64,000 bases of DNA from Branchiostoma floridae (lineage: Eukaryota; Chordata; Leptocardii; Amphioxiformes; Branchiostomatidae). A program made the translations under genes and the position numbers. The stretch lies in NCBI RefSeq assembly GCF_000003815.2, contig NC_049986.1, positions 4,798,556 through 4,862,555 of the forward strand, written 5' to 3'. Below the pieces are notes generated by a model that saw only the letters and a list, made by a program, of their open reading frames with translations, was not told where the DNA came from and did no database searches. This document shows positions 29,112 through 58,907 of this stretch, piece after piece. How positions within the stretch are numbered: the stretch's first letter is position 1; the number at the start of each line of letters is the position of its first letter.

Positions 29112-29239
29112 CTATCTCTGCCCATTCGTATCTGGTATCCTTAAGTCAGAGAAGATTTCTTCACTTCCAGATAAAGTCGTCAATTCTTCATCAGCAGGTG
29201 TTGGCTGCACAGGATCAAATGCTGCACCTGCCCGTCCAC
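29112..29239 (-). CDS. Gene B exon 24 (terminal): acidic C-terminal tail
   Basis: A 41-residue tail: GRAGAAFDPVQPTPADEELT then acidic SGSEEIFSDL, ending NGQR at TAG 29112-29114. No membrane helix follows, so the product should be secreted. The split Gly codon joins exon 23. Confidence 0.72.
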
Positions 29240-32200
29240 CTGTTAATAAAATACTCATTTAGTGTATTACTCATAATGGCACCACAATTCAATCTGAAAT
29301 TATCATACCTTTAGAAATTATAGTGTGTATAAACACACTTTATACATTACACAAGTACCACTGGTGTACACAGGATAAATCTCTGCAAGGGAAAAATAAG
29401 GTATCTAATACTAGTAGTAGTCATAGGACATACTACTATCTTAAGGATTTGGAAGAGTAGGACTTCCTGACATGTTGCTCCACCCACACAGATCATACTA
29501 AAGATGAGCTTTCTTCCAAAATCATCATACTTCCGACTGCCGGAACGTCAGCAAAGCAAATCAGACATTTGACGAATTCGAAGCTCGCCGAGATCGACCG
29601 AAAAGTCATGGTGAATGTTTCCTTGGTGTTGGAACAAAGCTCAACTTCGTAACTATAGATTCTTTCAACACAGATGAGTTTTCAGTCGAATATATCATGA
29701 TGTACATGCCAGAAGGGCAAATTTTGGGTTACGAGTATGAAGTGCGAAGACACTGCATGGATACATTTATAAGTGTACCATGATTACTAGTATAGAAGTG
29801 AGATAATAAATGAATGAATGAAGACTTTTATTGTGCGTTTTTGCTTTCTAACAAGCTAAATACAGGCCAATATATACCTAGATGTGCCCCTCCACCTGCG
29901 CTGAAGGATGCATCCCCACTTGCTCCCTGTGTTTCATCAACTGTGGGAACAACAGGATAAGTTAATGAGTCTATATAACAATGCTGCAATTTTACTTTAA
30001 AATCTTAAGTTTTTCTTGAAACATTCATTGTATCAAGTGTTAAGGAAGTAAACATGAAATAGAACATGAAGTGCTCACATATGAAATTACTTAAGTGTAG
30101 GGGTAGACAAGTGTGTTTAAATGCCTTCACCTGTACATTCACCATCTTCTGTGATGTGGGAGAACTCGAAGCTGTAGTTAGGCAGACAGTCCGCAGCCAT
30201 CAGCCTGCACTGATTCTCAAACACTGTACCATCCTTGCTGCACACCCTGCCAGAAATGCAAGTCAAGGAACGTTTGGAAGTGGAAGGAAGTGGAAGAACA
30301 ACAAATGATTCACACAGATTGTACGTCTTACTCAGTGGTTTGACAAAAAAACAACTTTGTACAAAAAATGGAAAGCAAACGGAAAGCAAAAGTTAAACTT
30401 CAAAGTAGAAAGGGCGATATGCATTTGCTCCGCAGCAACTACAGTATATTTCACTCCATCACTGACTGACTCCATCTCCCTCCAAATGCAATAAACATGG
30501 ACGGTTCCAAAACAACTTTTTGCAGAAATTGACCAATCATCCAAAATCATACTATTCCAAAAATTAGTTTTCAAAAATTTTGATCCCCTTTTCAAGAATG
30601 GACACTTCCAGAATACCAATTTTCACTCGTACTCTAGGCCCCGTAATGATGCAAAAATTAATACGGATACATCGGCATGTGCTTACATGTGCTTACAGGT
30701 TGAGGTGAGGGAACAGTGCTCAAGATGGCGGGAATTTCCATTTCCCAGCTCTTCTTGGTGTTGTATTTCTAGAAAATGGTCTGTAACGGCCATAACAGGA
30801 TTTTACGATGACATTGACCGCTAATTTTTCCAATTCCCCGCTTTATGCCACAAACTATGATCCCGTAGTACCCGGATGTAATCCGGACTCACGTAATACG
30901 GACTATCAGCACAGCACAGGAGGTCTCGCGAGGTACAACCAAATATGGAAACCGATTGAAAATTAACCAAATAATTTACTGGACGCTTAGCTTACCTCAT
31001 CCCACCTCTGGGGCAGTCTTGGGGACGAATGCAGATGCATCTCCGATGTGAGGATGTTGTATTGACACACTTCTCCCACTCATTGCACACACGATCTCCA
31101 CATAACGTCCGTGGGCGTGGTCTTGACGAGGATTCTAGATAATCATAATTTAACACTTACTGCACTGACAACTTTAGTTCAAAAGCACAGTCTTACTATT
31201 CTACTAATTATTCTGAGCGCTGATCTTATTGCAACAAAGTGTACTTTGAAAAGAGCAATGGAGTAGAGCAAAGGAACACATTTCTCTGACATTGATTATT
31301 CTTGAAGTTATCCTTGAAGTATTTGTTAGTTAGTTGGACACGATAATGAAATTACCATCAATCTCAGCGTGGCATTCAGGAACGTCTGCAGACCATGTCA
31401 AATCAGCCATGCACCGCAGAATCTCCTCTCCAGTAAGAACAAAGTTGGGCTTGCACTGAAATGTGATGGTATCCCCGACATTGTAGGTTGCTTTTGGGCG
31501 AGTATTCACCACATTCTCAGAATGTTCTGGCGCAGGACACTCGTAGTCTAACGGAAAACAAAACAAAAGAACAGGAATTCAATAATTATAGAGAATTGCT
31601 AAACTTTCGGTCCAACACAAAGATAATGTAGGGACTTACCCCTAAATTTTCTATCGGTCGATCTCCGTCGAATGACCCTTTCTCACTCCAGCAGTGACGT
31701 CAGGAAGACACCACTTTTGCAGGAGGGGGTCATAAATATCAGAAAGTCTATGTCGCCACCCGTCTCTGTTGAGTGTGGGCCGATGAGCTCTGATGTGCAA
31801 GGCCCCCTTCACTCCTCGTGCGAAGAAGATACTTTTTCGGAGCTGCGGACGGTAACCACTGCACTAATGAAGTGGCACATCAGAGGTCATCGGCCCACAC
31901 TCAACAGAGACGGGGGGTGACATAGACTTTCTGATATTTATGACCCCCTCCTGCAAAAGTGGTGTCTTCCTGCCGTCACTGCTGGAGCGAGAAAGGGTCA
32001 TTCTGTGAACAAGGTCGACGGGGATCGACCGAAAATTTAGGGGTAAGTCCCTACATTATCTTTGTGTTGGAACGAAAGTTTAGCAATTCTCTATAATGTA
32101 TTCTACCAACACAGATGAACTTTCATGCTAAGGAATTCATTAAGTCAAGTGTTAAACAGACAATGGTCAATATCTCATGACCTTCTAACAACTACACCTC

Positions 32201-35200
32201 TTGGTAATAGTTGTTCACTGGAAAATAAAATCAACTTTGTCAGATCTATCCACAATCCTTCCTTTGGAAAGGAAGGATGTATACATGACAGTACAATATG
32301 TCTGTTGTTTAAAACATCGTCTAGCCTTCATCATCATGTATTGATCACAGCTTCGTTACTTTTAAAATGTTAGAAGAGTAGTAGCAAAACCCAAACCATT
32401 TGATATCTTAGTAAAGAAGGTTGCACTTACTGAGGACATCACATGTCGGGAAACTGTCTGACCAATGTCCACTGGTGAGGCATGTGATCTGTTTGGGGCC
32501 ATTCAAGATAAAGCCTGGCTCACAGCTGAAAGACACGGTGCTGTTGGCAAAGAAGGTCTGTCCCCTCATCTCACCATTGTCAGGCACAGAGGGCACAGGA
32601 CAGCTCACCATCGCTGCGAGCAACAGGTATAGTATCAGTGAATAATCTGCTCTCTGCTTCCAATAAAATCCTTATCACATCACCCGGAGGTACAACCTAC
32701 AGAGGATCGTTTTTACTACAATGCAAACCAATCATAGTTAGTGAGTGAGCATTGCTAAACATGCAAAAATATGTTTTCAAGATCTTTCCAGTAATGTTAT
32801 CTTGAACATCAGGTACTGTATATCCGAAGTATGATATAACTGTACCTCGGGATTTACTCAATGCTGCATAGTAGACCTTATTTTCACCTTTTCATTTGGC
32901 AACAAACATTGACCTTGTTGTCATAGCTACTGTATCATAATGGTCGAGACTGAATGGTCTCAATCGAACAGACTGGTCCTTCCTTCACATCTAACTGAAT
33001 TCACTCACAATGTACATAATATTTGCCCTTTCCTTTTAATCACGTAACTGTAACCGTTGTCTATTTCTTTGTACCTGCACAAGTGGGTGGGTTGTCCGAC
33101 CATGTGCCGTCCCACCTGCACCAGAGGTTAGGAACACCCTGCAGTCGGAAGCCCTCCTGGCATGAGTAGGTCACGTGCTCATTCATGATGAATTTGTTGA
33201 CATAGTATGAACTTCCACTCCTCCTGCTGTATGCTGGGATACCCGGATCTTGGCACGTCACCTCTGAATAACATGTGAAATCAAAATAATTAGTTAATCA
33301 AAAGTTGTCCTGGCCACATTCAGTGCCAAAAATGGGCAGTGACCCTTTCTGTATACCATATGCCAGACTCCACATTATTGTCACCATGTGCCATCATTAG
33401 TGGGCAAATGAAGAATATATAATCTTAAATTCAACCTATTACACACAGCCATTTACAACACTGCCTACTGCTGATATCAAATAGAACAGATCAGAACAGA
33501 AAGCTGTAGTTAAAAATACTGCCTGTCCACATCATTGAAATATGGAACAATCATGGTATTTTGGTTTTTGATCAAAATTTCTAAACTTGGATCATCTACC
33601 AATCACGACAAGCTTTCTAGCTGTTATAATTACATGTTACATTTATAACTGAAAGAACTTTGTGCAATATACAAAATGGCTTGATTAATTTTGTAGGTTT
33701 GAGTCAAGCAGTAAACTCAGTTATCAAATCAGACAGATATACAAAACTATTGTAAAGGAAGCAAAAGACCTGTCAGAAAGCACACCTTGAATGTTAATTC
33801 TGACACTGTGTGAGACCTGTGGATATTTATCACTGTAACATGTGTAGATCCCAGTATCCTGTAGCTGAGGAGGGTTAAAGATCAGTCGTCTGTAGTACTG
33901 CCTTCCTCTGCGCGACCACACAAGTTTGATGCGGCCAGAGTCATCTCGGTATTCTTCACCTATCCGTCTTACTATATGTGGGTACACATCCTGGCCATCC
34001 TTCTGGAACACCTGGTAACCATAGTTGGCAGGTAATGGGTCACAGTCCAGGTAGAAGACTCCAGCAGGGTATACGACAAAGTGTCCATGCTCTGTCTGGT
34101 TCCTAACGAAGAACTGCCCTCGGCTTGTCCTGAATCCTATCCTTACAGGGGATTCATCTGAAATATCAGGTTACAAGATATAATTGCTTTAACATTTCAG
34201 TGCTGAACAATACACATGGTATTTTGGTTTGGAACAGTCTGATAAAAAGGAATTTTACTGCAAGAAGGAAAGTTGAGAAGTGGACATACATAATGTACAT
34301 TGTATTAGTAAGCTGGAAATACAGTTGTGTCAAAACTAATGTTTAAAAAAAGTTTAACATTAGAATTTCATAATGCAGGAATCACCAACATCAAAAGGAT
34401 GAAAAGGACTTACAGTTTTGTATTATTGTCACGAGGTGACATCGTGATCACTCTGTGATCACCCCTGGTGTGGGGAGTGAGTGATCACCCCTGGTGTGGG
34501 GAGTGTCACCCGGGTAATTGAGAGCAGATGTACTGGGTTTTGAGAAGGGACACATATCTGGGAAGGGCATTCGATCGAGAGACAGAGAGAGAGAAAGACG
34601 TGTGTACCAGAGCTGTGAATAAAGCCTATCATATCCGCAACATCATGCCTCTGTCCTGATCCTTGACTTGACTCACTACCATGCCACCGTGACATCTGGT
34701 AGTACGGCTGGGGTGAGTCAGGTTCAACGGACGGGACAGAGGCAAACGGGAGGTGTACAGAGACGCAGGCTGACTTCGACTCAGAGAGCGCCGGCCCGGA
34801 GTACCGAGCCCGCAGGGTTGACCAGCTAGGGGCAAGGCGGCGAGGGAGTGTCGGTGGCCGAGGCGAGCGAGAGGAAGCAGGAGGGGAGGCGTCCGAGAGA
34901 TGCAGACTGACTCGAAGCGATTTGTGATCATGATGACCGCGACAGTAATGGCCTACAGCAGCGGCGAGGGGAGCGGAGTACGGCCACACGGCGGGCGCGG
35001 CAGCAGGGCAGGGGCAGGACGGCCACGCGGCGGTGACCGGAGGAAGAGCGCCCGGCCCGGGCAGAGAGAGACACGGGAGGAAGGTCGGTGGGCTCGCATA
35101 GTATCATTGGCGCACCGTGCACACCGGCCTAGTTCTGTTACTTACTTTGTTCAGCTTTGTTGTAGTAGTTTTAGATTTGTTAGAATGTAGGCAACCAATG

Positions 35201-38200
35201 TTAGATAAATTATGTCAGCGCTATCAGGAATACAGTATAGATTAGCTGAGCAGCGAGTATCATGCGGACGTGGCGGAAGTCAGTGGGGGGGAGTCACCAG
35301 ATGGGTCAGTTTAGATGTAAGATAGACAGATAGAGATGGAATTGTTATAGATAGAACATATGGGTTTTACTCCCCGGGATAGTAATGTGTAGTTCGTATG
35401 ATGTTTCCATAGCAGGTCAGGGGTGTCCGGCGTTTCATGTACATGTAGTTGTCAGAAAGTCTGTATGTTTGTGTTTATGTATTGAGGATATGTATGTCGA
35501 GAGGTAGAGGCAAGAGCAGTGGTAGAGAAGAGTTGAGACGTAGGTGAGGTGTCGAGGTTAGGAGACCGGTGTATGTGCGTCAGTGGTTGCTTTGCGTTGT
35601 CCTGTCCGACCCCAACCTCTACAGGCGAGACTCCACAGCACGACTCGGCAGACAACGACGCCCCGAGGGTCCGACGTCGTATAGGAGTCGTCGTCGTGGG
35701 AGCATCTAGCCGGGAGGCCTCTGTGGACAAGACAAGCCTCTTCCCGAAGGGCAGAGGAGTTCCTGTCGTTTCTCTGTGGTTCCGGGACACACCCGGAAGT
35801 GCGCAAGCCGGCCGCCGAGGAGGAAGTTGGCGCGGGACACCTGGCAACCATTGATGAACTTTTGTTGTTGTTAATTGTTATGTTTTTGTTGTTGTTTTGT
35901 GAATGTCGGAATGACGCTGACCTGTACGAGTATGTTGTTGTTCTTTTACCTTTTCATGATAACTTCATCGCATTGTAGAAGAATTAGTATGTATATATAT
36001 ATATATATAAAAAAAGGCGGTCATCATCTTCATGATAAATGTCCCGGTAATCAATAATGGTTAACAGCTGTCAACAATGTGGAAATTGTTTTCAAAAAGA
36101 TGAGGGGTGAGGTGTCACGAGGTGACATCGTGATCACTCTGTGATCACCCCTGGTGTGGGGAGTGAGTGATCACCCCTGGTGTGGGGAGTGTCACCCGGG
36201 TAATTGAGAGCAGATGTACTGGGTTTTGAGAAGGGACACATATCTGGGAAGGGCATTCGATCGAGAGACAGAGAGAGAGAAAGACGTGTGTACCAGAGCT
36301 GTGAATAAAGCCTATCATATCCGCAACATCATGCCTCTGTCCTGATCCTTGACTTGACTCACTACCATGCCACCGTGACATCATCACTCGCGCAATTGTT
36401 CTGACTCTCTCTCTCTCTCTTACTAATCATGTTCTTGCTTATACTTATAGGGAGGGTGAAAATTGCATTTTGTGGGACATGTTTACAGATAGTATGTAGA
36501 AGAAACGCATCTGTGATGTCAATATCTGGCGTTGTGATGTAACGTTAGGTTGCTATTATCATTAACTTACCACAGGATGGATGGTCTGTGTCGTTCCACC
36601 TCCCATTTAAGCACGTGCGAACCACGGAACCTCGCAATGTGTACTTGCCAATGTCGAAGCACCTGGACACGATCATGTCATTTTGCACAAACTGAGGAGC
36701 TGTGTTCATTTGGATTTCTTTTCCTCTGAAGAAGGAAACCACTTCACTGTTGATGATGGGAGGTTCACATGGCACACCTGTAGGATACATTGTAGGGCAG
36801 AGTAGATACAGTGTTCAGGACACCTCATTCTGACTCTTATCCTTTACTTTACTTTACTCATGATATCATATAGGTAATTCCCCACTGGCAGGCATGACGT
36901 CCCCTTAAAGTCCCCACAAAGACTTCCTTCATCTTATGAATCATCTTTGGTGTCAAATTTGGTAGATAATAATAATAAATATGCATACTTCTCTCATAGT
37001 GGTCCCAACCTACAGCATTCCTCTCAAAGTCGCCACCAACCGTCCATCTGTTCTCAGAGCTCAGCTGACACACTCTGTCCGCCTCATTGTAGTCAAATGA
37101 CAGACAGTTGAACTTGACCTCACGTCGACACTGGTTGGCACACTCCTCCACCTTTGTATCCTGATGTATAACGTTGTTGTGTCCAAGTAATGCTGCATCC
37201 GAAAACTTCTCAAACCCGTTAAGGTCCAGGTCATCCCCTGCACAAAACATGAAGGAATGTCTGGCACGGTGCACAATATACGGGCATTTCAGGAAAGACA
37301 GTAGATTTATCAGGAAAAGCAAACCTTCAAATTCTGAAAGAAAGCTCCATATCTAATTTGGAATGTAGATATCTTTAGGCAGCGGCTATATTACGAGTAT
37401 TTAATAACTTTTTAGTAATGTAGAAATGCATGTACGCTGATGATAAATACTGTGACAGAGATGTTGCTGCTGTGATGGTACATGCACAAGGATGTCTGAT
37501 GGTGGTGTACTCACTGAGTATTGTAACATGATATTGACAAATGTAGCGACGCTTGTAGTGGCAGTAAAAGTCATGCCATTTGTATGCATCAGTTTTGTGC
37601 ATGGCAACACAGTCCTCATCTCCAAACCAGTTCCCATCAGGCTGTCCACTGCCCCACATGTTAAAGCTGCCCAGCGGTGAGCCATCAGAGTAGAGCCAGC
37701 TGCCCTCCTGAGCAGAGTCCCGCAGCCCTATCCAGTACTGTGCGGCATGAAGGCGTCCGACGAGGAAGTCATGCACGGCCCGATTTCTGACTGCCACCAG
37801 TTCAGCACCGTCCCTTCGGCAGCTGTCTCTGGACTCACGGTGTGTTTTGACATCAGAGGATATCTTATAACAACCATCATGGAAGAAGGTGTATCCAGCT
37901 TTGCAGTCTAGAAAACATACCAAGTTGATGGTTTTGACCCCTATCTTTTAACTTATAATTTATCATTGTATGAGGCAAAACATCAATTCCGCCAGATGCC
38001 ATAATACCACCACATGAGAAAAACAACAATTCAAATAAATCGATTTAAAGAAATGTACCAATGCAGCACCAGTAATCCTAAGGTATAAACATTTCAGATA
38101 TTTAGGTCTGGCTAAAAATGCCTGCATATATTTTATGAAAATATCTTAATGTCAATCATTCCTCAGGGCCAGTATATTCTGCAAGGAAGTGATCAGAGGA

Positions 38201-47200: not shown

Positions 47201-50200
47201 ACAATTGCTCATATTCCATTGAAAAATGCCATGCTATGTTCTTATACTCGCTAAAACAACGCAATTCTAGCGATGTATCACGAGTACGCCATAAGTCGCC
47301 GGTTCGAACCCGGTGGGCGGGGAATTTAATTTTCTTCTTCAACATCCATTAATGACTCGTGATGTTCTTTTTAGATACAACATGTGCCTTTTGCCCGAGG
47401 TTCCTACTTTCTTAAAGGGCCATGTCCATAATAATCTACATTGTGCGCTCAGAGCACGCAATGTATATCATTATGGCTCTGCGTCAATCCTCGGTAGATG
47501 CTATTCAAAGTACTAGTACTCGGAAGCATGCGACCTGCTTGGACTACCCACTCTCCAGCAACGACGGGAACAGCTTACTAAGAAGTTCGGCTACACTTTG
47601 TTGCAATCAAGAACATTCAGACGGTGGCTTTCACCAACCCGAGATGAGGCCAGTGGACGGTGTGTCAGATCACACAACAAACTGACCACTATCAATGCCA
47701 GAACGGAGCGGTATAAGAACAGTGCAATTCAGCACATCGTCGGATCAATGAACTCATAAACTGCATTGTTTGTACCTTATCTGTTGATTTTAACGGTCAA
47801 CCCAATCTGTATACAATTTGATACGTTTGATAACTGTAAAAGATTTTAGATTTATGTGCGTTACAGCTATGTAAGTACAAGAGCAATTCAGGGCCCAATT
47901 TTTTAGTCCTGCTAATCTGTACATTTTAATGGACCAAATAAACCACTATTATATTATTATGGCTCTGAAAACATTTATTGGAGAGAAAAATATAACAAAC
48001 CTTTGCATGTTAGCTGAACTGAGGACCATTGAGCATTCTCCCCACATCGTATATAGGGTTGACCAATTCTGAAGAAACCGCTATTGCAGCGATATAACAG
48101 CCTCTCTCCAACATTGAACGCAGTGCGGTGTCTCTCTCCATCATACATGGCGTGGTCGACATCAGGTGGCTCTCCACACGTAGTAACTGGTAGTAAAAAA
48201 ATGCATACTATTCCCCACCATATGATAAAGTACCTACTATATATATCATCATGCACATCACAAAGCATTCAGTATCCTAGCAAACTCCTCAAGTACTCTC
48301 AAATCAAACAAGGTAATACCCTGTGACGTATTTATGGTTTCCACTGCACCCGTTGCAACAATATACATTATGCCGATGATAATGATATGGACACAGACAG
48401 ACATGTAACGACGAACAGGGAAGAAAACGAAGCTCTGATATTACTGGTAGCTTACCAGGACAAAGTATGCACGTGTTTATTATAGCTCTGGCACTGACTA
48501 ATGCAATGTGCTAGGAAGACAGCAGAGTTAAAACATCTGTTTAGGGATTCCTCTAACGCGACAGATGTTCTTTCCATATCTGCATCACGCAACATCTGCT
48601 TGGCAATATACAATTACCACAAGGACTTAGGCGGAGATAACACAAACCTGGACTAATATACCGAAGGACGTAGCGTGATTTCTGAAATTATTACATTGAT
48701 TATAAAAACAGCTACCGCAAAAAAAGTGCATCATTGCGCAACTGAGTGCAGTCGACATGCCAAACTGCATACGGATGCGGCAAATAGAATATAGAGATAC
48801 AGATGCGAACACTCATCACATCTACCGATCATAATACTCTGTCGACGGAGGTTACAGAGTAATTATTACCTAGCAATCTTAGCTTATGGCTTGATACAAA
48901 TTGTGTCTGACAAAGCTTTAAAAACTGTAGGTTACAAACCTAATTTCAGGGGTCAAATAGTAAACACTCGTTTTGTTATATCTTCTTTGATATCCTATCA
49001 ACAAACGTGTCAAGTTAGGGCGCATCCCCTGTGGCAGCTATTTGAACCTGAAAAAAATTATCACACATCCCGTTGAGAAATGATTGATAAGTATGTATAC
49101 ATCCAACACAATATGAGTATATAACTCAAGGGAAGTCCCTTTACCGTTTCTTGTGCACTCTGGAGTGTGCCAGGTCCATTCCCGGTCCCCGGTGCACTGT
49201 CGCTGTGCCTGTCCGGACAGCACGTATCCATCATCACAGGAGTACACAGCCAGACCATGAAAGGACAACCGATCAAACAGGACTGCACCATTGGTGGGAA
49301 TCTCAGGCTCTCTGCAGGTACCATCTGGAAAATCAAAGGAATCTAGTACCGCGGGCCAAGGCTGAAAAAAGATGCCACAACTGGTTTATGTGGAACTTGG
49401 AAACCTTGGATTACATTTGTGTACTTTTGAATAGAATGAAGTACATGTAGCTCAGTCATAACGAAAGTTCGGAGACGTCATACCTTCATTGAAATTGCAC
49501 AGTATCTTGTTTTATCTTAAATGTCTCATTGATTTTTCCGATAAAAGGCTGTAATGAGCATAATCCATTTCAAATGATGGTCTTTTCTACCAGAATAGAT
49601 TATGTTTTGTGTGTGAAAGTCTGTTTTCCCCTGGCAGAATTCCACTTTGTAATGAACTATTATTAATAATAATTATCTTTATTGCAAATTCATGCCCGAT
49701 GGCTAATTGCATACAAAGTAAAACAGTAGTGGTATAACTAGAGTTCGGCGACCTCATACCTCCATGAAAATTTAGAGCTTTCGTAAATAATTTATGCATG
49801 GTGTTGTTCATCATTGACAAACGTACACATGTCACAATTATAAAATTCCCATTATTAATCAAAAAGCGGTTTTGCGATTTTTACATAAATTATGCAAATA
49901 AGTTCCTCACTACCATATTTGGTATCTGCTTATATTCCACCTATCATAATTAACATGTGTTACATTTAGTGAAGTCCAGTTATTGCAAACAATGGAATTA
50001 TACAATTTCCTCATTAATTATGCAAATTAAGTCCTCACTTGCATAACATGTATATCATTATGAACATCTTTGCCTAAGGTACCCGCATGCCTAGTATGAT
50101 GCCAATCCGTCAATCCTTTCTGCAGTTATCCTCTTTGGAATGTCTTGACAAAAACGCCCCTGCAGTTCCCCAATTAAATGTTGGGGAGCTGAAACTTGCC

Positions 50201-53200
50201 CCACTTTGTCATGACACTAAAAGCTATCTACCACCCAAATTTCAAGACCATATCACGTCCAAGACAAGGGATACATAGAAAAAACTGCTATGGTTGAATG
50301 TTGTCATTAATTATGCAAATTTGCTCCTATTTTGCATAATTAGTATTTCATTTTGTACAACATTGTCTGAGGTACCTACATACCAAAAATCATGAAAATC
50401 CGTTGTTCCCTTCTTGAGTTATCCTCTTCAGAAGTTTTTGACAAAAATGCCCCTGCTGTCCCAAAACTAGACGCTAGGAGGCCCAAACTTATGTCACTTC
50501 TTCCTGAGCACAAGAGCTATCTAATATCCAAAGTCGTGACCATAGCATGTTCAGAACACCGAAATAGCAAAACCGAAAGCTGCACTGCAGTACCAAGGGG
50601 AGCCGCTAGGGGGCCCAAAATCTAATCATTTCCAGCGTTTATCACACCCTACCAACACACTAAGTATGAAACCAATCCACCCAACCGTTCATGAGTTATC
50701 TTGTTTACACACACAAACACACAGACAAACACAGGGTAAACTAGAGTTCCACGAACACATACCTTTGCCAAATAAACCAGGTTTGTTATGTAGAATGTTG
50801 TCTGTAGACATAAATGTGTTACTCATTACATTTTATTTTATATGCCTGGAGTTGGTTCTTAACATTTCGCCATTGCTTATACAAATTAGATCCCTATTAA
50901 CATAATAATATTAAATTGTATCAAGCATCACTTCAGCTATCAGCAGACCAAAAATCATTATGATCCTTTCATCCCTTCTTGACTTATTCTCTTTCAAAGT
51001 AGGAAACTAAACCGGCTACTGCAGTTCAAGAAAAGACATAACCGCACCCAAACATACACCTCTTACACTCTGCCATCTTTCTCAGTTACATATGTGCATC
51101 TGTGACAAGTTTGAAAGTCCTATCACGGAATGCAGTGGATTTATCAACTTTCCGCATTAACTATGCAAATTAGCCGTTAATTTGCATAATTGGTATCTCA
51201 TTATGTAAGTTTTTACGTAGGCTACCTACACACCGGAAATCATGACGATTCGTCAACACGTTCATATTTTCCATTAATTATGGAAATGAGATCATCATCT
51301 GCGCTGCATAATTAATATGTACTGATATTTCTTTTTCTCAGCTACAAATGTGACAAGTTTGAAAGTCCTATAAAGGAATACAGTGGATCTACAAACTTTC
51401 CTCATTAATTATGCAAATTAGCCGTTGATTTGCATAATTAGAATTCCATCATGTAAGTCTTCCCTCTGGCTATCTACATACCAAAAATCATGACGATCAG
51501 TCAACACGTCTATAATTTCCATTAATTATGCAAATGAGGCTGTCATTTGCATAATTAACATGCATTGATATTTCTCTCTTTCTCATCTATATATGTGACA
51601 AGTTTGAAAGTCCTATCATGAAATGCAGTGGATTTATAAACTTTCGTCATTAATTATGCAAATTAGCTACTGATTTGCATAATTAGTATTTTATTATGTA
51701 CATTGTTACTTGGGCTATCTACATACCAAAAATCATGACAATCCATCAACACGTTCTGGAGTTATTCTCGTCCAAAGTTTGAAAGGAAATCGGCGACTGC
51801 AGTTCCAAACAAGCCGCTAGGGGGTCCAAACGTACCGCACTTACTTTCTGCCCCAAGGGCTATCTACCACTTAAAAATCATAACCACAGCATGTCCAGAA
51901 CACGAGATATCAAAAATTGAGGTTCTACTGCAGTACCTTAGCAAGCCGCTAGGGGGCCCATTATCGAACTTGACCTTCGTTTTCCCGACCCCTACCCACC
52001 TACCAAATATCATCTGGATCCATTCAAGGCTTCTCGAGTTTGTTTCTTTCGGAATTGTAATGTGAAAATTGATAAATGAAATGTAGTTCATCTTCCGCTG
52101 CTTTCCCTGAACAGTATTTACATGTTCTCTCGTCAACGGACAGTTTTTTGACGACGCCTCAGGGGAGTCGTCAAGTGGTATATGTTGCATTCAGTCTGCA
52201 AAAATTCTAGGAATTGCACAGGCATTTTTCCACAGGAATGCTAGTACCCCACAACAGTATGCTGGGAATTTGGGTCATGTCCTAGAAAGCTTGGACCTGG
52301 GGGATGGTTGGGTCAACTCAGGTCAACGGATAGGGATAGACATATACCACAGGTAGACAGAAAAGGTTACATATTAAGGCAATAATCTTGAAAGTTGGCA
52401 AATGGTAATTATATTCAGAGCCAAATGTAATTTTCATGTCATGTACTAAAGGTATATCAAGGCCACACACTAGTAATTTTCATGGCATATACTAAAGGTA
52501 TATCAGGGTCACACACTGGTAATTTTAATGGCATATACTAAGGTTATATCAAGGTCACACATTGGTAATTTTCTTGTCATATGCTAACGATATATCAAGA
52601 TCACACACTGGTACACACAGTGTCACACAAACATACAAAATAATGTGTGTATAAAATACAATCACACAAACACAGACACATTGACACTTAAAGGCAGTAC
52701 TGGAAATCCGTTGCATGTGGGATCAGGGGGATGGTTGGGTCAAGTCAGGTCAAGAGGTAGGGAATGCCATAGATTCTTGGAATTGTAGAGGCATGTTTCA
52801 ACGGGCATGTATGGAATGTTAGCTTGGCATGTTTACAGGCATGTATGGAATGCTAGCCTCTCTATGAATATGAAATGGAATTTGGGACATGTCCTAGCCT
52901 AGAGAGAGCATGGTTGGTAATTTTCTTGGTCCGAATCACATTTGTTAGTGAGTAGCTTAACCACCAACAGCAATATTAAGAGTCGATGCACGAAACTCCC
53001 TCTGGCTTTTACCTCTGTCACAGACACAGCAAAGCATCCTCTAGCTGCCCCACAAAAACACCCCCTGCCTTTGAAGTCTGATGCAAGTATAAAGAATTCT
53101 CTTCTTCACTATATAAACTACAGCTCTCTCTCCCGGTAAACCACCTGGCTGTACAGGTGACCTCACACTGCTAAGTATCTTGTCAGATTTCCAGATGTTC

Positions 53201-56200
53201 GCTAATTAGCTTGGTTCATGATAACTAGCTTGCTTTGACAGATCTGGGACAACGGGTGTTTTCTTACAGTTCTGGTACTAGTAAAATGGCCGTTTCTGTA
53301 AGGCAAGTAAAATTCAGCCACTAAGTCAACACAATAGATCCCCGTATCTTGCTTCTTTGGAAGCTGGTTCAGTGAGTGTCATTTGCGTCTGCTAACATTG
53401 TGGTAATTTTCATGTCATATACTAACGATATATCAAGATCACACACTGGTACACACAGTGTCACACAAACATACAAAATCATGTGTATAAAATACAATCA
53501 CACAAACACAGACACATTGACACTTAAAGGCAGTACTGGAAATCCGTTGCATGTGGGATCAGGGGGATGGTTGGGTCAAGTCAGGTCAAGAGATAGGGAA
53601 TGCCATAGATTCTTGGAATTGTAGAGGCATGTTTCGACGGGCATGTATGGAATGTTAGCTTGGCATGTTTACAGGCATGTATGGAATGCTAGCCTCTCGA
53701 TGAATATGAAATGGAATTTGGGACATGTCCATTCCTTTAGAATTCCTATGAACCTTAGGGAACACAGTATGCTGGGTATGCAAGTCTCCCCCCCCCCCCC
53801 CGAATCTGTTCCAGATGTATCTCTGGTATGCAATGGTGGAAGATTTCACCATTGTGCTGTACCTGGTATAGAACAGGCTGGCTGTAGGTTTATGTTACAG
53901 GTGGGCTAGTATATTGTGCCAGGGATAGTGTGACAGGGAAGTTCCAGTCTATTTCTGATTTGAGCTGTATTGTTGTACCCTCAATTGTCGTCATGGCAAT
54001 AATACATTTTTATTGCCAGTCTTGTTGTACCCGCCCCTCTCTGTTTCTAGCGAATGAGCACTTATCCTCATTCTACATAAAGCGGATCTTAGCTCAAAAT
54101 CTGTGTGGTATAGGTATCTCTCCATACTGTACTCAGATTTAAGTTTTTTTGTACAATCCTAACTTACCAGCATTAACAGATAATTGGTGAAGAGATTTTT
54201 GAATATAGATGTCTGATAGCCTTTTCCTTAACGATACACAAACATGCTTGCTATCAACATCTACGTTGTTACTGTACCAGATGAATGAATTATCTAGAAT
54301 TTATTTTTTCGATCTAGAATTTCCAATTTTTCTTGTTATTATTCATCACATCATTTTATTGGGACAATAGAGCGTTTACATGTAAAGGATGTGTACATGT
54401 CCCCAGTTGTCTTAGCCGCAAGCAATATTTAACAATCCTAACTGAAACATCAACATCTAATGGAAATCTTCCGAGTTCAGCTTTACATGCCATGTTGCTG
54501 GCGTTTCTATGAACTCCTGCAAAATTGTTGTGAAGCACTTCAACTGAAGAATTATCCTGCAAGTGGTCTTTACCCAAAATTTCGCTACCATATAGCATGA
54601 TAGGCTTGATACATGTATCAAAAATTTTTGATAAATTCTTTATAGAGATCGGATAGCGGATGAGGGATTTTATACTGAAGACAGCTTTACATGCTTTGAG
54701 AGAAAGTTCTTTTTTGGTAAAGGAAAAAGAACTTTCTCTCAAAGCACGTAAATTATTGTTCCACAACCTCAATTCCCCATTGATTATGCAAAATAATGTC
54801 CTAATCTACATAATTGGTAGGGTGGGTTAGGCGACCCGTCTGCCTGGCCTGCACGTGACAATTTAAGGTGAAGGAGGGGTGTGCACTTCCTTCTCCATCC
54901 TCTCGTCTTCTGGTGCACTAAGACGGCAGATGCAGATTTGTTGTTTGGAGTTTCCGTCTCCTAGGAGACTTCCGACCAAGGATGTATGGCAAGTGCGTCA
55001 TGCCCGAACATGCCTCCATGGCCTGCCACTGCCACTAGCCGCAGCTAGGTACTCATTTACACCTGAGTTAAGTGAGGAAAGTCGTGTAAAGTACCTTTCC
55101 CAAGAGCACAAGATCGGTGACACGGCAGCCGGATTGGAACTCAGGACTTCTTGGACCTGAGCCCAACGCACTGCCGATTGCGCCACGCGATCTCACCCTT
55201 ACCCTACACCATGAAAAAGTACCTGAAAGCACACAAACCCCTAAGTTACACCTCAGAAGAGGCACTTATCATCTGCAAGTAAACGATCGCAAAATTCGAA
55301 ACCTAGGACTAAGTACGCCCAATTTAGCGCGTGCCTGCAAACTTTACCTGCAATAAATTAAATTTGCAAGCTGTCAGCTGTGTGACGCTTGAGGTCAGTC
55401 GGGATGGATAAAAATGAATTTTCAACCATAAAAAACATATCATGCAGTCGTTTACGTTTTGGATAGGTATTCTTTTAGCAGTATCTGAATGAGACCTAAA
55501 GTATTGAATAACGGCTCTCTCCAAAATGAGCCTTGACTATTTGACGAAGGTATGTGTTCGTGTAACTCCACAGTACAGGTTCGACAGACTGTAGGCTTTA
55601 AAGTCAACCTTCCGCTAGTGTTAGAGCCATCCTTATCCATCCATGACATTGATTGACTGACATAATCTTGATTGACTGACCAATTAATTGATTGATTGGT
55701 TGATTGGATGATTCATCGATAAATTTATAAGTTAATGGATATCAAATAACTTACTGGGGTTAACACAGCTCATGCCACAAGGACCATCACACAGACACCT
55801 CTTGTTGCGCCCTCTGCAGTCTGAGTCCACAGTACATCTCTTCCTGCTGCAGCTACGACCCTCTGCAGTCGCGGCAGCAGCGCTGGGGACACACAGGCTC
55901 TCATTGTCTGGAAACAACAGAGACATTGGCCATAGAATGATCCCAATTGTCAAATGATATTTACAAAGTTATGAATGATATCTCTTATCCCTAGTATGTT
56001 CCGGTTCCTTATGCATTAAGCTATGTTGATTTCATTTAATCAATTTTCGTCCATTTTTACACCAAAATGAATTTCAACTATACTATAAATGGTACAAAAC
56101 TATTGCAAAACTAGAGTTCCACGACCCCATACCTTCACTAAATGATTTTAATCACAACTGGTGTGTTAATTGTGTTTGTCGTTAATTATGCAAATACGGC

Positions 56201-58907
56201 CCTAATGTGCATAAATGATCACAACTCCCATGCGACCAGTCAGAGATTCTTGTCATTTACTACAATGGGACTGTAGCATTTTCCCATCAACTATGAATAT
56301 TGGGTCTTTATTTGCATAATATTTATCTATCAATATTCTTACTCATTTACCAATGTCACATGCTGCAATAGTCCTCATTAATCATGAAAATTAGATTCCG
56401 ATATGCATAATCGATATTCAACTAGCGTTCCACGACCCCATACCTTCGCTAAATGATTTTAACCTTTACAACTGGCGTTTCTCTAATCATGCAAATAAGG
56501 TCCTAATTTGCATAAATAATATCAGTTAATCACCTCTTCTATCCAATGACAGACATACACAAGCTATATTAAGAAAGAATGAAATAAAGAAAGAAAAACA
56601 TTTTTTTCATTAATAATGGAAATTAGATTTCAATTTTCATAATCAATCTTTGATATATGAAGCATAACTTCTGTCAGCCCCTTCTTGAGTTATTCCCTTT
56701 CAAAGTCTGACACTAACCCGGTTCTTGCAGGTCCAAAACAAGCCACTAGGGGGCCCAAACCAACACCACTTATTGTGTTGTTAAGAGCTATCTTCCACTT
56801 AAAAATTATGACCACAGCATGTCCAGAACTCTAGATATCAAACCCAGAAGTTCCACTGCAGTACCATACCAAGCAGCTAGAGAGTCCAAAATCTAATTAT
56901 TTCCAGGTCTCATCAAGACCTACCAACATACCAAATATCAATACAATCCATGCAGGCGTTCTCGAGTTACGGTGGTCTTCTACAAACACACACACAGACG
57001 CTACCGAAAATATAACCTTCAACTAGAGTTCCACGACCCCATACCTTCGCCAAATGATCCGAACCTTTCTCTACAACTGCTGTATTAATTGTGTTTTTCA
57101 TTAATTATGCAAATAAGGTTCTCATTTGTATAAATCATATCAGTTGATCATCTCCTCCACCAGAAGTACACAATCTATGCTAAGAAAGAAGCATTTTTCT
57201 GATAAATTATGTAAATTAGGATCTCATTTGCATAATAAACGTTCAACGATGTTCACCTGCACACTTCCAAATGCTACAAGTAAGAAGTTCCTGTCATTTT
57301 CCAAAACGAATTTATAGCATTTTCTCATTCATTATGCAAATTAGGTCTTTATTTTGCATGATATGTATCATTCTTCTCCTTCTCAGTACAAATGTCACAT
57401 GTTGCAATGGTCCCATAATGGGACTAAGTTTGTTTACAAAGTGTCCTAATCAGTTATGCAAATTAGATACCAATTTACATAATTGATATGTCATTATACA
57501 TCACTTAAGCTATCTACATGACAAAAATCATAAAAATCCGTTTACCCCTTCTTGAGTTATTCCCTTTTAAAGCCTGACACTAAACCTGCTCTGCAGTTCC
57601 AAAACAAGCCACTATGGGGCCCAAACCTACACCGTTTACTCTCGGCATCAAGAGCTGTCTACCACTCAAAAATCATAGCCACAGCATGTTCAAAACGTGA
57701 GATATCAAACCAGGAAGTTCTGCTGCAGTACCGTAACAGGCTGCTAGGGGGCCCAAAGTCTAATCGTTTCCAGGTCTCATCAAGACCTACCCACAGACCA
57801 AATATCGACACAATGCATTCAGGCTTTCTTGAGTTATGCTGGTCTTCTACAAACACACATACAGACGCTACCCAAAATATAACCTTCTTGACGAAGTTAA
57901 CTATATTAAGCATCACTTAAGCTATCTACATACCACAAATCATGAAGATCTATCACCCCCTCCTTGAGTTATTCCCTTTTAAAGTCTGGCACTAAACCTG
58001 CCCCTGCAGTTCCAAAACAAGACGCATGCCTACACCACTTACTCTTTACCCCAAGGGCTATCTAGCACTTAAAGTCGTGACCACAGCATGTCCGGAACTC
58101 GAGATATCAAACCCGGAAGTCCTGGGTCGCTTATGTTTACGTTGATTTGATCAAGTGGGACATAACCACGTTTGATTGAGAAGGGGGGTGGCTCGTGCTG
58201 AATGGGGCGGACAGGGTGTACCTACCGTCGAACACAGTGAGCTAAACGTTACAGCATACATATGTTTGTGGTTCAAATGTTTCTATGGTAGCACGCTATC
58301 GTTACGATATCGTAACGTCCCTATCTCAATATCGTACGCGTACTTTAACACTTTTTAAAACGTTATTTTGACACGGAAATTGCAAAGTTGTATGAAGAGA
58401 CATATGGACATCATTCAAAAGTCCCCTTTCAGTCCTACCGAAAACGACGTTTTGTTCAAAGCATCGTTGACGTATTTACGTTTATTTTCGTTTAGTTAAG
58501 GTACCTTTTCCAATACGAAATTTTGACACGGTAATGACGCCATAGTACACCGAAGTGGGAGGGTGGACTAATGTTCCAGTATTTTTTTTAGCAAAAAATC
58601 GGTTTAAACTCCACTCCAAATTCAGTCTTATTGATGTTGCCTTTGCACCATTGGCGGGGCGTAAACATCACTGTCCCATCTTTACACAGACTGTAACTGT
58701 AAGCGTGCCCTCTTGCACGTTTTACAACTTCCTGGTAAGATATTAGCAGATCTTGTCTTATGTGAGATCTGTTCTCTTGACGTCTGACACGAAACACAAA
58801 CAACACTATGAGGATATGAGTGAGAGTGGGTAGAACCTACCTGCCATAATGGTGTACCCATAAAAACTGAGCAGTGCCCACACCAAAATCTCGAGTTGTA
58901 CCGCCAT
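29112..58907 (-). CDS. Gene B: secreted mosaic protein WAP - CCP x11 - C-type lectin - PAN - CCP - Ig - CCP x3 - FIMAC, 24 exons, 1482 aa
   Basis: Not recognised as a named gene. Seen: signal peptide 1-22; WAP-like 23-73; CCP1-11 74-739; C-type lectin 740-870; PAN/apple 871-953; CCP12 954-1022; Ig-like 1023-1146; CCP13-15 1147-1334; FIMAC about 1335-1419; Gly-rich then acidic tail to 1482. No membrane helix, GPI signal or enzyme domain. Exons: 58841-58907, 55755-55907, 49145-49324, 48001-48186, 46663-46836, 45952-46125, 44821-44994, 43736-43915, 43108-43275, 42403-42624, 41043-41219, 40192-40377, 39803-39979, 37515-37907, 36989-37237, 36571-36777, 33786-34157, 33075-33263, 32431-32613, 31356-31547, 30996-31134, 30131-30246, 29878-29940, 29112-29239. 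All borders are GT/AG and all phases join. Known: FIMAC occurs in complement factor I, C6 and C7; CCP arrays bind C3b/C4b; lectin and PAN domains bind glycans or proteins. Inference: a soluble recognition or regulatory component beside a factor B-like gene. Confidence 0.9.
29878..29940 (-). CDS. Gene B exon 23: Gly/Ala-rich tail
   Basis: A 21-codon phase 1-1 mini-exon: DETQGASGDASFSAGGGAHL. It is likely flexible. The acceptor (ttcccacag) and donor (CTAG|gtatat) are plausible, and the frame joins both neighbours. Confidence 0.7.
   Translation of the reverse strand: MMKHREQVGMHPSAQVEGHI
30131..30246 (-). CDS. Gene B exon 22: FIMAC domain, Kazal-like second half
   Basis: Residues 1381-1419, phase 2 in and phase 1 out. 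VCSKDGTVFENQCRLMAADC followed by ...GECTG completes the domain. VC-x3-G-x-x-[FY]-x-N-x-C is the Kazal-like core. The single-base lead exactly completes the Arg codon opened by the previous exon. Confidence 0.88.
30410..30620 (-). repeat. Dispersed repeat ('ggagatgg' family, divergent inverted copy)
   Basis: 'actccatctccctccaaatg' and 'ttttcaagaatggacac' mirror the 8440-8600 family on the opposite strand, in a gene B intron. Confidence 0.45.
30996..31134 (-). CDS. Gene B exon 21: FIMAC domain, first half
   Basis: Residues 1335-1380, phase 1 in and phase 2 out. LCGDRVCNEWEKCVNTTSSH then RRCICIRPQDCPRGG matches the FIMAC/follistatin-like pattern (C-x-W-x-x-C ... C-x-C-x-x-P-x-x-C-P). No ATG, so ORF scans miss it. 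Confidence 0.85.
31356..31547 (-). CDS. Gene B exon 20: CCP15
   Basis: A phase 1-1 sushi exon with ECPAPEHSENVV, FQCKPNFVLTG and TWSADVPEC (residues 1271-1334). Last CCP before the FIMAC domain, an order also seen in C6/C7. Confidence 0.9.
31584..32097. mobile_element. Fold-back element, 514 bp with long arms
   Basis: The left arm runs from 'attatagagaattgctaaac' through 'gtagggacttacccctaaat' and 'aagacaccacttttgcagga' to 'ctctgttgagtgtgggccga'. The right arm is its near-perfect reverse complement, ending 'gcaattctctataat'. Arms are about 210 bp around a non-coding centre of about 90 bp. A related fragment is at 29575-29680. In the intron between CCP14 and CCP15 of gene B. Confidence 0.85.
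32431..32613 (-). CDS. Gene B exon 19: CCP14
   Basis: A phase 1-1 sushi exon with SCPVPSVPDNGEM, FSCEPGFILNG and HWSDSFPTC (residues 1210-1270). There is one sequon (NST). Confidence 0.92.
33075..33263 (-). CDS. Gene B exon 18: CCP13
   Basis: A phase 1-1 sushi exon with TCQDPGIPAYSRR, YSCQEGFRLQG and TWSDNPPTC (residues 1147-1209). Confidence 0.92.
33786..34157 (-). CDS. Gene B exon 17: Ig-like domain
   Basis: A 124-codon phase 1-1 exon, residues 1023-1146. FYLDCDPLP gives the first Ig cysteine. LIFNPPQLQDTGIYTCYSD gives the D-x-G-x-Y-x-C motif of strand F, and SVRINIQ strand G. Confidence 0.85.
34427..36380 (+). mobile_element. Non-autonomous LTR retrotransposon (TRIM/LARD-like), 1954 bp
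   Basis: Two direct 268-bp LTRs (34427-34694 and 36113-36380) begin TGTCACGAGG and end CCGTGACA. By eye they are identical, so insertion was recent. Each carries an AATAAA and a duplicated 'gtgatcacccctggtgtggg' block in the U3 part. Two bases after the 5' LTR, 'tggtagtacggctgggg' could be a tRNA primer-binding site. A polypurine tract (aaaaagatgaggggtgagg) precedes the 3' LTR. The 1.4-kb GC-rich interior encodes no gag, protease, RT or integrase I can recognise. No clean target-site duplication is seen. It sits antisense in a gene B intron between CCP12 and the Ig exon. Confidence 0.9.
36571..36777 (-). CDS. Gene B exon 16: CCP12
   Basis: A 69-codon phase 1-1 exon, residues 954-1022: PCEPPIINSEVVS, SRCFDIGKYTLRG, RTCLNGRWN and DHPSC. 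The LTR retrotransposon lies just downstream, in the next intron. Confidence 0.87.
36989..37237 (-). CDS. Gene B exon 15: PAN/apple domain
   Basis: A phase 1-1 exon, residues 871-953. KVEECANQCRREVKFNCLSF then DYNEADRVCQLS fits the apple pattern (C-x3-C-x6-F-x-C-x-S-F-x-Y ... C-x-L-S). Such domains bind proteins or glycans. Confidence 0.88.
37515..37907 (-). CDS. Gene B exon 14: C-type lectin domain
   Basis: A 131-codon phase 1-1 exon, residues 740-870. It starts CKAGYTFFHDGCYK and carries YWIGLRD (797-803), a QPD sugar-binding motif (828-830), DEDC (836-839), WHD (850-852) and RYICQY. QPD usually predicts Ca-dependent galactose/GalNAc-type binding. WHD in place of WND is a departure at a Ca ligand. 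Confidence 0.95.
38820..39230 (+). repeat. Dispersed repeat (family R2), two partial tandem copies
   Basis: 'ctgaggttgacgatgatgca' with a T-run, 'ggttttattatg' and 'ttcgtctt' occurs twice (38860-38970 and 39115-39220). Both relate to family R2 at 14410. Confidence 0.6.
39583..39725 (+). repeat. tRNA-derived SINE, copy 1
   Basis: It has a head 'taatgtaacagtagggttca', 'gaccatgcaaaacg', 'aggcttttggcatagtggtt' and a B-box-like 'ggttcaaatccc'. It shares its whole layout with the minus-strand copy at 44226-44360. It sits about 80 bp from the CCP11 exon of gene B. Confidence 0.65.
39803..39979 (-). CDS. Gene B exon 13: CCP11
   Basis: A phase 1-1 sushi exon with PCILPGLQHGTYI, YRCSQGPGQVM and NWRSHPPHC (residues 681-739). 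The glycine-rich turn replaces the usual G-[FY] motif. Confidence 0.88.
40192..40377 (-). CDS. Gene B exon 12: CCP10
   Basis: A phase 1-1 exon, residues 619-680: WCPLPKKTDHGAF, LVCDDNYKPSQ and TWSTHLPSC. The acceptor is cagaacaag-like and weaker than the others, but frame and domain are clear. Confidence 0.87.
41043..41219 (-). CDS. Gene B exon 11: CCP9
   Basis: A phase 1-1 sushi exon with PCPGNGVNTQNDH, FQCAEGFEVAPG and RWMPQSPTC (residues 560-618). Confidence 0.9.
42403..42624 (-). CDS. Gene B exon 10: CCP8 (long)
   Basis: A 74-codon phase 1-1 exon: LCPPLDEIVNDAQ, ISCAPGTTLQG and QWVYREGQGQPVC (residues 486-559). A longer first loop and last loop than in the other CCPs. Confidence 0.88.
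43108..43275 (-). CDS. Gene B exon 9: CCP7
   Basis: A phase 1-1 sushi exon with PCDDIPDIVHGEV, FRCVRGFRLDG and TWKTLPSC (residues 430-485). Confidence 0.9.
43736..43915 (-). CDS. Gene B exon 8: CCP6
   Basis: A phase 1-1 sushi exon with KCEIKQPPSNGYF, VACNTGYRLEG and the ending DNGTFALPSC (residues 370-429). The usual Trp before the last cysteine is replaced by Phe. Confidence 0.88.
44226..44360 (-). repeat. tRNA-derived SINE, copy 2
   Basis: On the minus strand: 'taatgtaacagtggggggtt', 'gaccatgccaaacg', 'aggcttttggctcagtcatt' (A box) and 'gggttcgattccc' (B box). It could be mistaken for a tRNA gene, but the 5' extension shared with 39583-39725 marks it as a SINE. Confidence 0.65.
44821..44994 (-). 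CDS. Gene B exon 7: CCP5
   Basis: A phase 1-1 sushi exon with NCGEPDPVWNGFW, FSCRRGFLHVG and TWSSPSPHC (residues 312-369). Confidence 0.9.
45198..45372. mobile_element. MITE with about 65-bp inverted arms
   Basis: 'aacgcctggtcctttgctat' plus 'aaccacc' pairs with 'ggtggttatagcaaaggacc' plus 'aggcgtt'. The arms extend outward through 'ggtgtcataac' to 'cccgcc'. The centre is short (gagtgcgcgaagcgg). Intron between CCP4 and CCP5 of gene B. Confidence 0.85.
45699..45815. mobile_element. Short palindromic MITE
   Basis: The left arm 'gtgtgtatcgctccttctga' plus 'ttggtcagaat' pairs with 'attctgaccaatcagaagag' plus 'cgatacacac'. The inner arms 'cgacaacggcaccg' also pair. Two fold-back elements thus lie within 350 bp. 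Confidence 0.8.
45952..46125 (-). CDS. Gene B exon 6: CCP4
   Basis: A phase 1-1 sushi exon with SCPVLEHPENGHR, FTCSTGYIVRG and TWSGEEASC (residues 254-311). Confidence 0.9.
46663..46836 (-). CDS. Gene B exon 5: CCP3
   Basis: A phase 1-1 sushi exon with SCGNPGEITNGRR, YRCNSGYTLVG and QWSGSLPRC (residues 196-253). The frame has no upstream ATG, so simple ORF scans show only a shadow. Confidence 0.88.
47538..47759 (+). mobile_element. LINE ORF2 C-terminal fragment
   Basis: The frame LGLPTLQQRREQLTKKFGYT, LLQSRTFRRWLSPTRDEASG, then NARTERYKNSAIQHIVGSMN-S ends at TAA 47757-47759. This is the typical C terminus of a CR1/L2-like reverse transcriptase ORF. It has no ATG, and the frame is broken just upstream. 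In a gene B intron. Confidence 0.85.
48001..48186 (-). CDS. Gene B exon 4: CCP2
   Basis: A phase 1-1 sushi exon with TCGEPPDVDHAMY, YRCNSGFFRIG and QWSSVQLTC (residues 134-195). Confidence 0.9.
48540..48870 (-). repeat. Dispersed repeat (family R2, inverted copy)
   Basis: 'ttagggattcctctaacgcg', 'gcgacagatg', 'aacagctaccgcaaaaaaag' and 'ctgtcgacggaggttacaga' are the reverse complement of 14410-14760. It is close to a full-length copy. Confidence 0.7.
49145..49324 (-). CDS. Gene B exon 3: CCP1
   Basis: A phase 1-1 sushi exon with TCREPEIPTNGAV, YSCDDGYVLSG and EWTWHTPEC (residues 74-133). The intron before it is 6.4 kb and full of repeats. Confidence 0.9.
49735..50740 (+). repeat. AT-rich interspersed repeat (family R1, near full length)
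   Basis: It starts 'ctagagttcggcgacctcat' and ends 'gagttatcttgtttacac'. It is the clearest copy of the family, colinear with 22140-23200 and 16690-17640. The repeat fills gene B intron 2. Confidence 0.65.
51085..51740 (+). repeat. Tandem repeat, about 246-bp period, three copies
   Basis: The anchor 'gtgacaagtttgaaagtcct' occurs near 51103, 51350 and 51595. Each is followed by 'cagtggat', 'attaattatgcaaattag' and 'ataccaaaaatcatgac'. Copies differ by 10-15 percent by eye. Confidence 0.8.
52140..54040 (+). repeat. Composite repeat block with 330-bp direct duplication
   Basis: Segment 52563-52893 is repeated at 53402-53730 with few differences (both contain 'ggtacacacagtgtcacaca', 'gttgcatgtgggatcagggg' and 'gcttggcatgtttacaggca'). 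Before it, a 46-bp unit starting 'gtaatttt' repeats four times (52427, 52473, 52519, 52564). Family R3 ends flank the block (52147-52250 and 53755-54030), so an R3 element seems to contain the duplication. Confidence 0.8.
54356..54772 (-). mobile_element. LINE reverse-transcriptase C-terminal fragment with terminal fold-back
   Basis: The minus frame includes ISIKNLSKIFDTCIKPIMLY, GSEILGKDH, VEVLHNNFAGVHRNASNMAC and ELGRFPLDVDVSVRIVKYC. This matches the region after the RT palm in CR1/RTE-like LINEs (cIkPimlYGsEiwG ... F.k...gv...asn ... ElGrfPl). The upstream end is a fold-back: 54686-54714 pairs with 54725-54753 (10-base spacer). Confidence 0.85.
54985..55195 (-). repeat. tRNA-derived SINE (second type)
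   Basis: On the minus strand 'tggcgcaatcggcagtgcgt' gives an A box and 'gagttccaatcc' a B box. Then come 'cttgtgctcttggg', 'aaggtactttacacgac' and 'ggtgtaaatgagtacctagc', a body typical of tRNA-headed SINEs in marine invertebrates. Gene B intron 2. Confidence 0.7.
55755..55907 (-). CDS. Gene B exon 2: WAP-like four-disulfide domain
   Basis: A phase 1-1 exon encodes residues 23-73 with eight cysteines. RCTVDSDCRGRNKRCLCDGP followed by CGMSCVNP fits the WAP pattern C-x3-5-D-x-DC-x5-KxC-x-C-x3-C-x3-C-x-x-P. Spacing in the first half is looser (Ala-rich SAAAATAEG), so the call is WAP-like. Confidence 0.8.
56100..58125 (+). repeat. AT-rich repeat array related to family R1
   Basis: 'actagagttccacgacccca' starts sub-blocks near 56109, 56411 and 57023. 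They carry recurring 'attatgcaaat...ggtc' and 'catacaccaaa'-type tracts and 'ccacagcatgtccagaactc'. It fills gene B intron 1. Confidence 0.6.
58841..58907 (-). CDS. Gene B exon 1: signal peptide
   Basis: ATG at 58905-58907 opens MAVQLEILVWALLSFYGYTI then MA, with a hydrophobic core and no basic cluster. The donor is GGCAG|gtaggt, phase 1. The next phase-compatible exon is the WAP-like one at 55907. Confidence 0.85.

Follow-up and report, generated by a model that had tools for sequence, protein, structure and literature searches.

Does the run of cysteine-rich open reading frames (ORFs) that extends from 58.9 to 30.1 kb on the minus strand of a 64,000-nucleotide stretch of the genome of the lancelet Branchiostoma floridae (contig NC_049986.1; hereafter, the window, G000:C8:4798556-4862555) belong to a single gene and, if so, what kind of protein would this gene encode? 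Here, we rebuilt the gene model, compared its modules with known proteins and searched the genome (513 Mb in 431 contigs) for relatives. The reading that we favor, to which we assign a probability of roughly 0.45, is that of one secreted complement-type protein with a soluble recognition or regulatory role, encoded by an apparently single-copy gene within a small complement cluster. Judged from its predicted sequence, this mosaic protein seems to belong to the complement system as a component not yet described.

The model, which was built by picking splice sites around every module, runs from an ATG at 58907 to a stop at 29112 and consists of 23 exons, with 4386 coding bases that specify 1461 residues plus the stop. 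The domain order is signal peptide, WAP-like domain, 11 CCPs, C-type lectin domain (CTLD), PAN, CCP, immunoglobulin (Ig)-like domain, 3 CCPs, and FIMAC, and all exon junctions are in phase 1 except for a phase-2 junction within the FIMAC. The span and domain order given by the initial annotation, with the same start and the same stop, are borne out by the ORFs, the splice model, and Pfam, whereas its count of 24 exons and 1482 residues was not recovered in the rebuilt model. The exons are listed below; those encoding CCPs were identified by the splice model and Pfam unless indicated otherwise.

58841-58907, minus strand: exon 1, ATG and signal peptide with a hydrophobic core, phase 1 donor (8/9); 0 of 59 controls as good
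55755-55907, minus strand: exon 2, WAP-like, 8 cysteines; Pfam WAP E 0.0078, under the cut-off; sole genome match at E<=0.01
49145-49324, minus strand: exon 3, CCP1
48001-48186, minus strand: exon 4, CCP2
46663-46836, minus strand: exon 5, CCP3
45952-46125, minus strand: exon 6, CCP4
44821-44994, minus strand: exon 7, CCP5
43736-43915, minus strand: exon 8, CCP6
43108-43275, minus strand: exon 9, CCP7
42403-42624, minus strand: exon 10, CCP8
41043-41219, minus strand: exon 11, CCP9
40192-40377, minus strand: exon 12, CCP10
39803-39979, minus strand: exon 13, CCP11
37515-37907, minus strand: exon 14, CTLD with QPD and with WHD replacing WND; Pfam 4e-19
36989-37237, minus strand: exon 15, PAN domain; Pfam 3e-12
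36571-36777, minus strand: exon 16, CCP12, divergent; Pfam 0.14, cysteine and tryptophan pattern
33786-34157, minus strand: exon 17, Ig-like, LxDxGxYxC; Pfam 0.013; sole genome match at E<=0.01
33075-33263, minus strand: exon 18, CCP13
32431-32613, minus strand: exon 19, CCP14; also C6 alignment
31356-31547, minus strand: exon 20, CCP15; also C6 alignment
30996-31134, minus strand: exon 21, FIMAC part 1; Pfam, C6 and factor I matches
30131-30246, minus strand: exon 22, FIMAC part 2; C6 and factor I matches; the unspliced frame soon meets a stop
29112-29239, minus strand: exon 23, weakly supported, putatively the tail at the C-terminus with the stop

The splice sites argue for one gene across most of this span. 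When every AG or GT near each border was ranked by consensus score, ignoring the frame, 18 of the 22 acceptors and 21 of the 22 donors of the model ranked locally at the top, and the best-scoring site fell in the phase of the model at 41 of the 44 borders, compared to the expectation of one third (binomial p ~1e-16). The signal-peptide exon combines a hydrophobicity of 2.52 with a donor of 8/9, values reached by none of the 59 control candidates, which were drawn from the plus strand of the window. The earlier claim that all these exons form one gene is well supported for the internal exons; for the 3′ terminal exon, the support does not rise above chance.

Domain searches identify most of the modules directly. 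Pfam places 11 Sushi stretches in the first 740 residues (7e-82) and 3 in the last 314 (5e-34), counted at a lenient cut-off, and detects Lectin_C and PAN_1 at the values listed above, the former assigning exon 14 to the CTLDs by sequence. The WAP (0.0078), Ig (0.013), and CCP12 (0.14) matches fall below the Pfam cut-offs, and these assignments rest on cysteine patterns and motifs. In the WAP four-disulfide core, the fifth and sixth cysteines are adjacent; the WAP-like exon has eight cysteines, with CLC in place of CC. The Ig-like domain contains the LxDxGxYxC motif, and its best solved matches are T-cell receptor chains (E 0.008); a single-sequence AlphaFold model of this domain was unusable (pLDDT, the model confidence score, 38.7). 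The sugar site of C-type lectins comprises EPN or QPD along with WND; the mosaic CTLD retains QPD and has WHD, as opposed to the WND retained in 8 of 9 lancelet relatives. Additional sub-cut-off Pfam matches (UL45, Ig_6, zf-CCHC_3, F54D1_6_C, Kazal_1, and EGF_3) are chance-like. If cleaved after residue 22, the protein contains 90 cysteines; apart from the signal peptide, a simple hydropathy scan detected nothing resembling a transmembrane stretch. Together with a FIMAC resembling those of C6 and factor I, these features support the secreted, soluble, complement-type mosaic that was originally proposed.

Searched alone against PDB, the FIMAC matches C6 (8e-8) and factor I (6e-7), followed by follistatin (0.003), and in Pfam the mosaic protein exceeds the cut-off for Kazal_2 (3e-5). 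When the piece from CCP13 to the end was used as the query, the best-scoring C6 stretch covered query residues 59-275 (3t5o, E 2e-14), spanning CCP, CCP, and FIMAC. Across the genome, PF21287 yielded 43 matches at E up to 1, only 1 of these over the cut-off, and the matches are, putatively, mostly Kazal domains; the FIMAC of the mosaic gene itself, which an intron splits, is absent from them, and the search is uninformative.

How does this architecture compare to known systems? The initial annotation knew of no described protein with this domain order, and no paper in the literature that we searched, in which few subscription journals were covered, matches it; public annotation may well already contain a gene model of this locus. 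A close precedent, which the initial annotation did not name, is the sea urchin SpCRL, the closest described kind known to us; it was reportedly first described by Multerer and Smith in 2004, and sea urchins have another complement-related mosaic protein, SpCRS, alongside it. The CCP array and the FIMAC are common to SpCRL, SpCRS, and the lancelet mosaic. As described (PMC5712786), SpCRL combines an F-type lectin, CCPs, an S/T/P (serine/threonine/proline) domain, and a FIMAC, whereas, going by the domain descriptions, the lancelet protein has a mid-chain C-type lectin along with WAP-like, PAN, and Ig-like domains; no Pfam match to the F-type lectin was obtained in the mosaic model.

With C6 and C7, the mosaic protein shares the C-terminal CCP-CCP-FIMAC arrangement, and its tail was aligned to C6. 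By contrast, MACPF, TSP1, and LDLa were not found by Pfam in the mosaic model, which has one FIMAC compared to the two reported for vertebrate C6 (PMC11312191). Nor did Pfam detect MACPF in 95 minus-strand flanking ORFs or in 83 of the 153 listed plus-strand ORFs. Factor I has a FIMAC as well (E 6e-7 to the factor I chain), but at the start of its chain rather than at the C-terminus, and Pfam found no SRCR, LDLa, or trypsin-type protease domain in the mosaic model. Long CCP arrays are shared with factor H and other regulators of this type, and chains of CR1, CR2, and factor H are matched strongly, although the mosaic is not composed of CCPs only; a motif pattern for regulators of complement activation has been published in the form of logos (PMC6683126). 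The lancelet proteins described in PMC11312191, namely, a C7-like protein with TSP1-FIMAC, the latter considered primitive, and a C6-like protein given as TSP1-LDLa-MACPF-EGF without a FIMAC, are set apart by these descriptions from the mosaic, which contains a FIMAC and CCPs but no MACPF.

The gene looks single-copy by sequence comparison because, in the genome searches, the WAP and Ig exons (E 0.01), CCP12 (E 0.01), and the FIMAC and tail exons (E 0.1) matched only themselves, the best-scoring other PAN was 37% identical, and the best-scoring other CTLD 42% identical (highest listed identity 43%, with 150 scored of 1194 candidates). A tandem family was considered and rejected, given that no close paralogue of the WAP, PAN, CCP12, Ig, CTLD, or FIMAC exons was found. 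Such a search can miss distant relatives: with the first factor-B-like VWA exon of the neighborhood described below as the query, the VWA of the second factor-B-like gene was missed. The best other PAN belongs to the minus-strand locus L046 309-76 and L045 1933-1766 (G000:C3 near 5.28 Mb); it is preceded by an LDLa-looking ORF, and CTLD pieces on the same strand lie ~8 kb on, so this is perhaps another PAN-CTLD mosaic gene. Separately, G000:C15:11345529-11351813 contains one open frame of 2423 codons with many CCP matches, which is intronless, as opposed to the one exon per CCP of the mosaic gene.

The mosaic gene is flanked on both sides by factor-B-like genes with CCP, VWA, and trypsin domains:

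4603-23838, minus strand: factor-B/C2-like gene, signal peptide, 6 CCPs, VWA (DASGS), and trypsin (GDSGG, IVGG start); 16 exons, 1001 residues, consistent phases
L048 801-9760 and L049 311-3775, plus strand, just past window position 64000: parts of another factor-B-like gene, which runs divergently from the mosaic gene

Among the 95 minus-strand ORFs outside the mosaic gene, Pfam matched 6 to Sushi, 3 to VWA, and 4 to trypsin, and three other families were represented by 1 ORF each at 0.002-0.007. The first gene displays the domain order of factor B and C2 (CCPs, VWA, trypsin); we term it "factor-B-like" because neither factor B nor C2 is present among the best 60 of the 382 solved matches of its VWA-protease half, these being mostly thrombin and factor XI, with hepsin and the VWA of collagen VI also included. 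Its signal exon (23838-23760; hydrophobicity 1.9, donor 6/9) is one of five weak phase-1 candidates in 9.8 kb, and 16 as good were found on the control strand. Three 100-base runs of N (at 9172, 10233, and 15020) fall within introns of this gene, where exons could be missing; all are outside the mosaic gene, and assembly gaps inside the latter are thereby ruled out. The pieces of the second gene comprise two CCPs and a further weak one (0.005), with a weak EGF fragment (0.004) between the CCPs, and three pieces each of VWA and trypsin; CCPs are fewer than in the first gene. Its first CCP lies ~6 kb from the start of the mosaic gene, and its first exon was not found. In the 10 kb past the left end of the window (L047, including 1695 N), tblastn gave no match to the mosaic or the factor-B-like protein. 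A VWA exon at G000:C8:15058876-15059130, 44% identical to the first VWA exon of gene 23838-4603 and the only other match listed, points to one more candidate factor-B-like gene within this contig.

Within the mosaic gene, the intron between CCP12 and the Ig-like exon contains an additional element:

34427-36382, no strand assigned: long terminal repeat (LTR)-like element bounded by two identical 270-bp direct repeats (34427 and 36113)

Each repeat starts with TG, and the element is apparently young; no matching target-site duplication was found, and no gene was recognized in the three ORFs scanned. No exon of the model lies between the two repeat copies. Diverged interspersed repeat families (D1-D5 and D8) occur in the introns around the WAP exon (50010-58001). 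Searches of the window with Rfam, at gathering thresholds, and ARAGORN returned nothing. A plus-strand reading of the locus was rejected, as Pfam gave no domain of the mosaic gene among the 83 plus-strand ORFs scanned, of which 1, unnamed, matched LPD15 at 0.004.

The position of the mosaic gene between two factor-B-like genes, on which the initial annotation is silent, strengthens the assignment to complement. The CTLD, perhaps with PAN and the Ig-like domain, would dock the protein on glycans of microbes or altered self, and the long CCP arrays would serve both to extend its reach and to bind C3b-like fragments. An activated, C3-like thioester protein could be clasped by the CCP14-CCP15-FIMAC tail, by analogy with C6, the C-terminal CCP and FIM domains of which are reported to wrap the thioester domain of C5b (PMC5483522). 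The factor-B-like neighbors would supply the convertase proteases and, because the mosaic carries neither a protease nor a pore domain, it would on balance focus or regulate the convertases formed from them, neither cutting nor lysing. C3 is reported from Cephalochordata, with C4 and C5 given as known from vertebrates only, and a CCP-containing C-type lectin from oyster activates, as reported, a MASP-like/C3 pathway (PMC11312191).

Several observations weigh against this reading. The gene was read from genomic sequence alone, in one lancelet genome, and its 3′ end is uncertain. The terminal exon (29239-29112), with 9/18 pyrimidines at an acceptor that ranks locally 2nd of 7, is no better than chance: 34 rival acceptor-to-stop candidates, some of them overlapping, were identified in 30100-20306 (at least 40 codons and at least 10 pyrimidines), and after the stop at 29112 there is no AATAAA before 27629. 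If left unspliced, the frame of exon 22 meets a stop just past the FIMAC (ORF end 30120), with an AATAAA at 29832, and we consider an ending simply at this stop at least as likely as the spliced tail exon. The single FIMAC scores 0.6 bit under the cut-off for Kazal_CFAI (6e-6; 27.1 bits vs 27.7). Over the tail, CR1, CR2, and factor H outscore C6, owing to the many CCPs that they contain, and C6 is absent among the 45 sequences matched by a 211-residue piece at E 1e-12 or better. Furthermore, the lectin site is without the Asn of WND, and the genome contains CCP and CTLD exons in very large numbers, so that mosaics of this kind may be common.

A somewhat unlikely alternative is that the protein, in the manner of other CCP/CTLD/PAN mosaics, serves in matrix or adhesion and has complement-type modules without taking part in complement. 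Every module of the mosaic except for the FIMAC is also found in matrix and adhesion proteins, and, among solved structures, the CTLD is matched most strongly by receptors with several CTLDs, for example, the secretory phospholipase A2 and mannose receptors. However, a FIMAC of the C6/factor I kind is, to our knowledge, known only from complement and complement-related proteins, and the two factor-B-like neighbors also weigh against this alternative.

We consider it unlikely that the model fuses two adjacent genes, for example, one encoding the signal peptide, WAP, and 11 CCPs and a second beginning at the lectin exon, joined through their common phase 1. Phase-1 modules always join in frame, and phase alone is thus no marker of gene borders; gene prediction is known to err by fusing neighboring genes into chimeras (PMC3927609). 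Between CCP11 and the lectin exon, where a new start would, according to the initial annotation, divide the gene, there is one weak signal-exon candidate (hydrophobicity 1.82, donor 5/9), which compares poorly with the exon at 58907 (2.52, 8/9); moreover, the acceptor of the CTLD exon scores best locally, and the intergenic space would be <2 kb. Very unlikely, finally, is a giant lectin-bearing factor-B-like protease in which splicing continues from the FIMAC to the CCP-VWA-trypsin exons downstream. In its favor, phase 1 is shared by the FIMAC donor (30131) and the first factor-B-like CCP (20305), the last exon of the mosaic does not stand out from chance candidates, and signal exon 23838-23760 is one of five candidates with 16 equals on the control strand, but this exon is still plausible and yields a complete factor-B-like reading frame, and a poly-A signal is present at 29832.

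Returning to the single secreted complement-type protein, a more far-reaching version of this reading, which we regard as distinctly improbable, would make the mosaic a pore-less, lectin-bearing relative of the terminal components, with the CCP-CCP-FIMAC tail capturing an activated C3-like protein on lectin-marked surfaces and the locus being an ancient cluster with two factor-B-like proteases. If this version is true, the mosaic would represent the FIMAC-bearing, MACPF-free kind of protein that supplied C6, C7, and factor I with their tails. With regard to the acquisition of FIMAC tails by the terminal complement pathway and by factor I, the mosaic protein is a concrete candidate for testing whether such tails served at first in docking to C3, and the cluster offers a useful landmark for the annotation of complement in lancelets.
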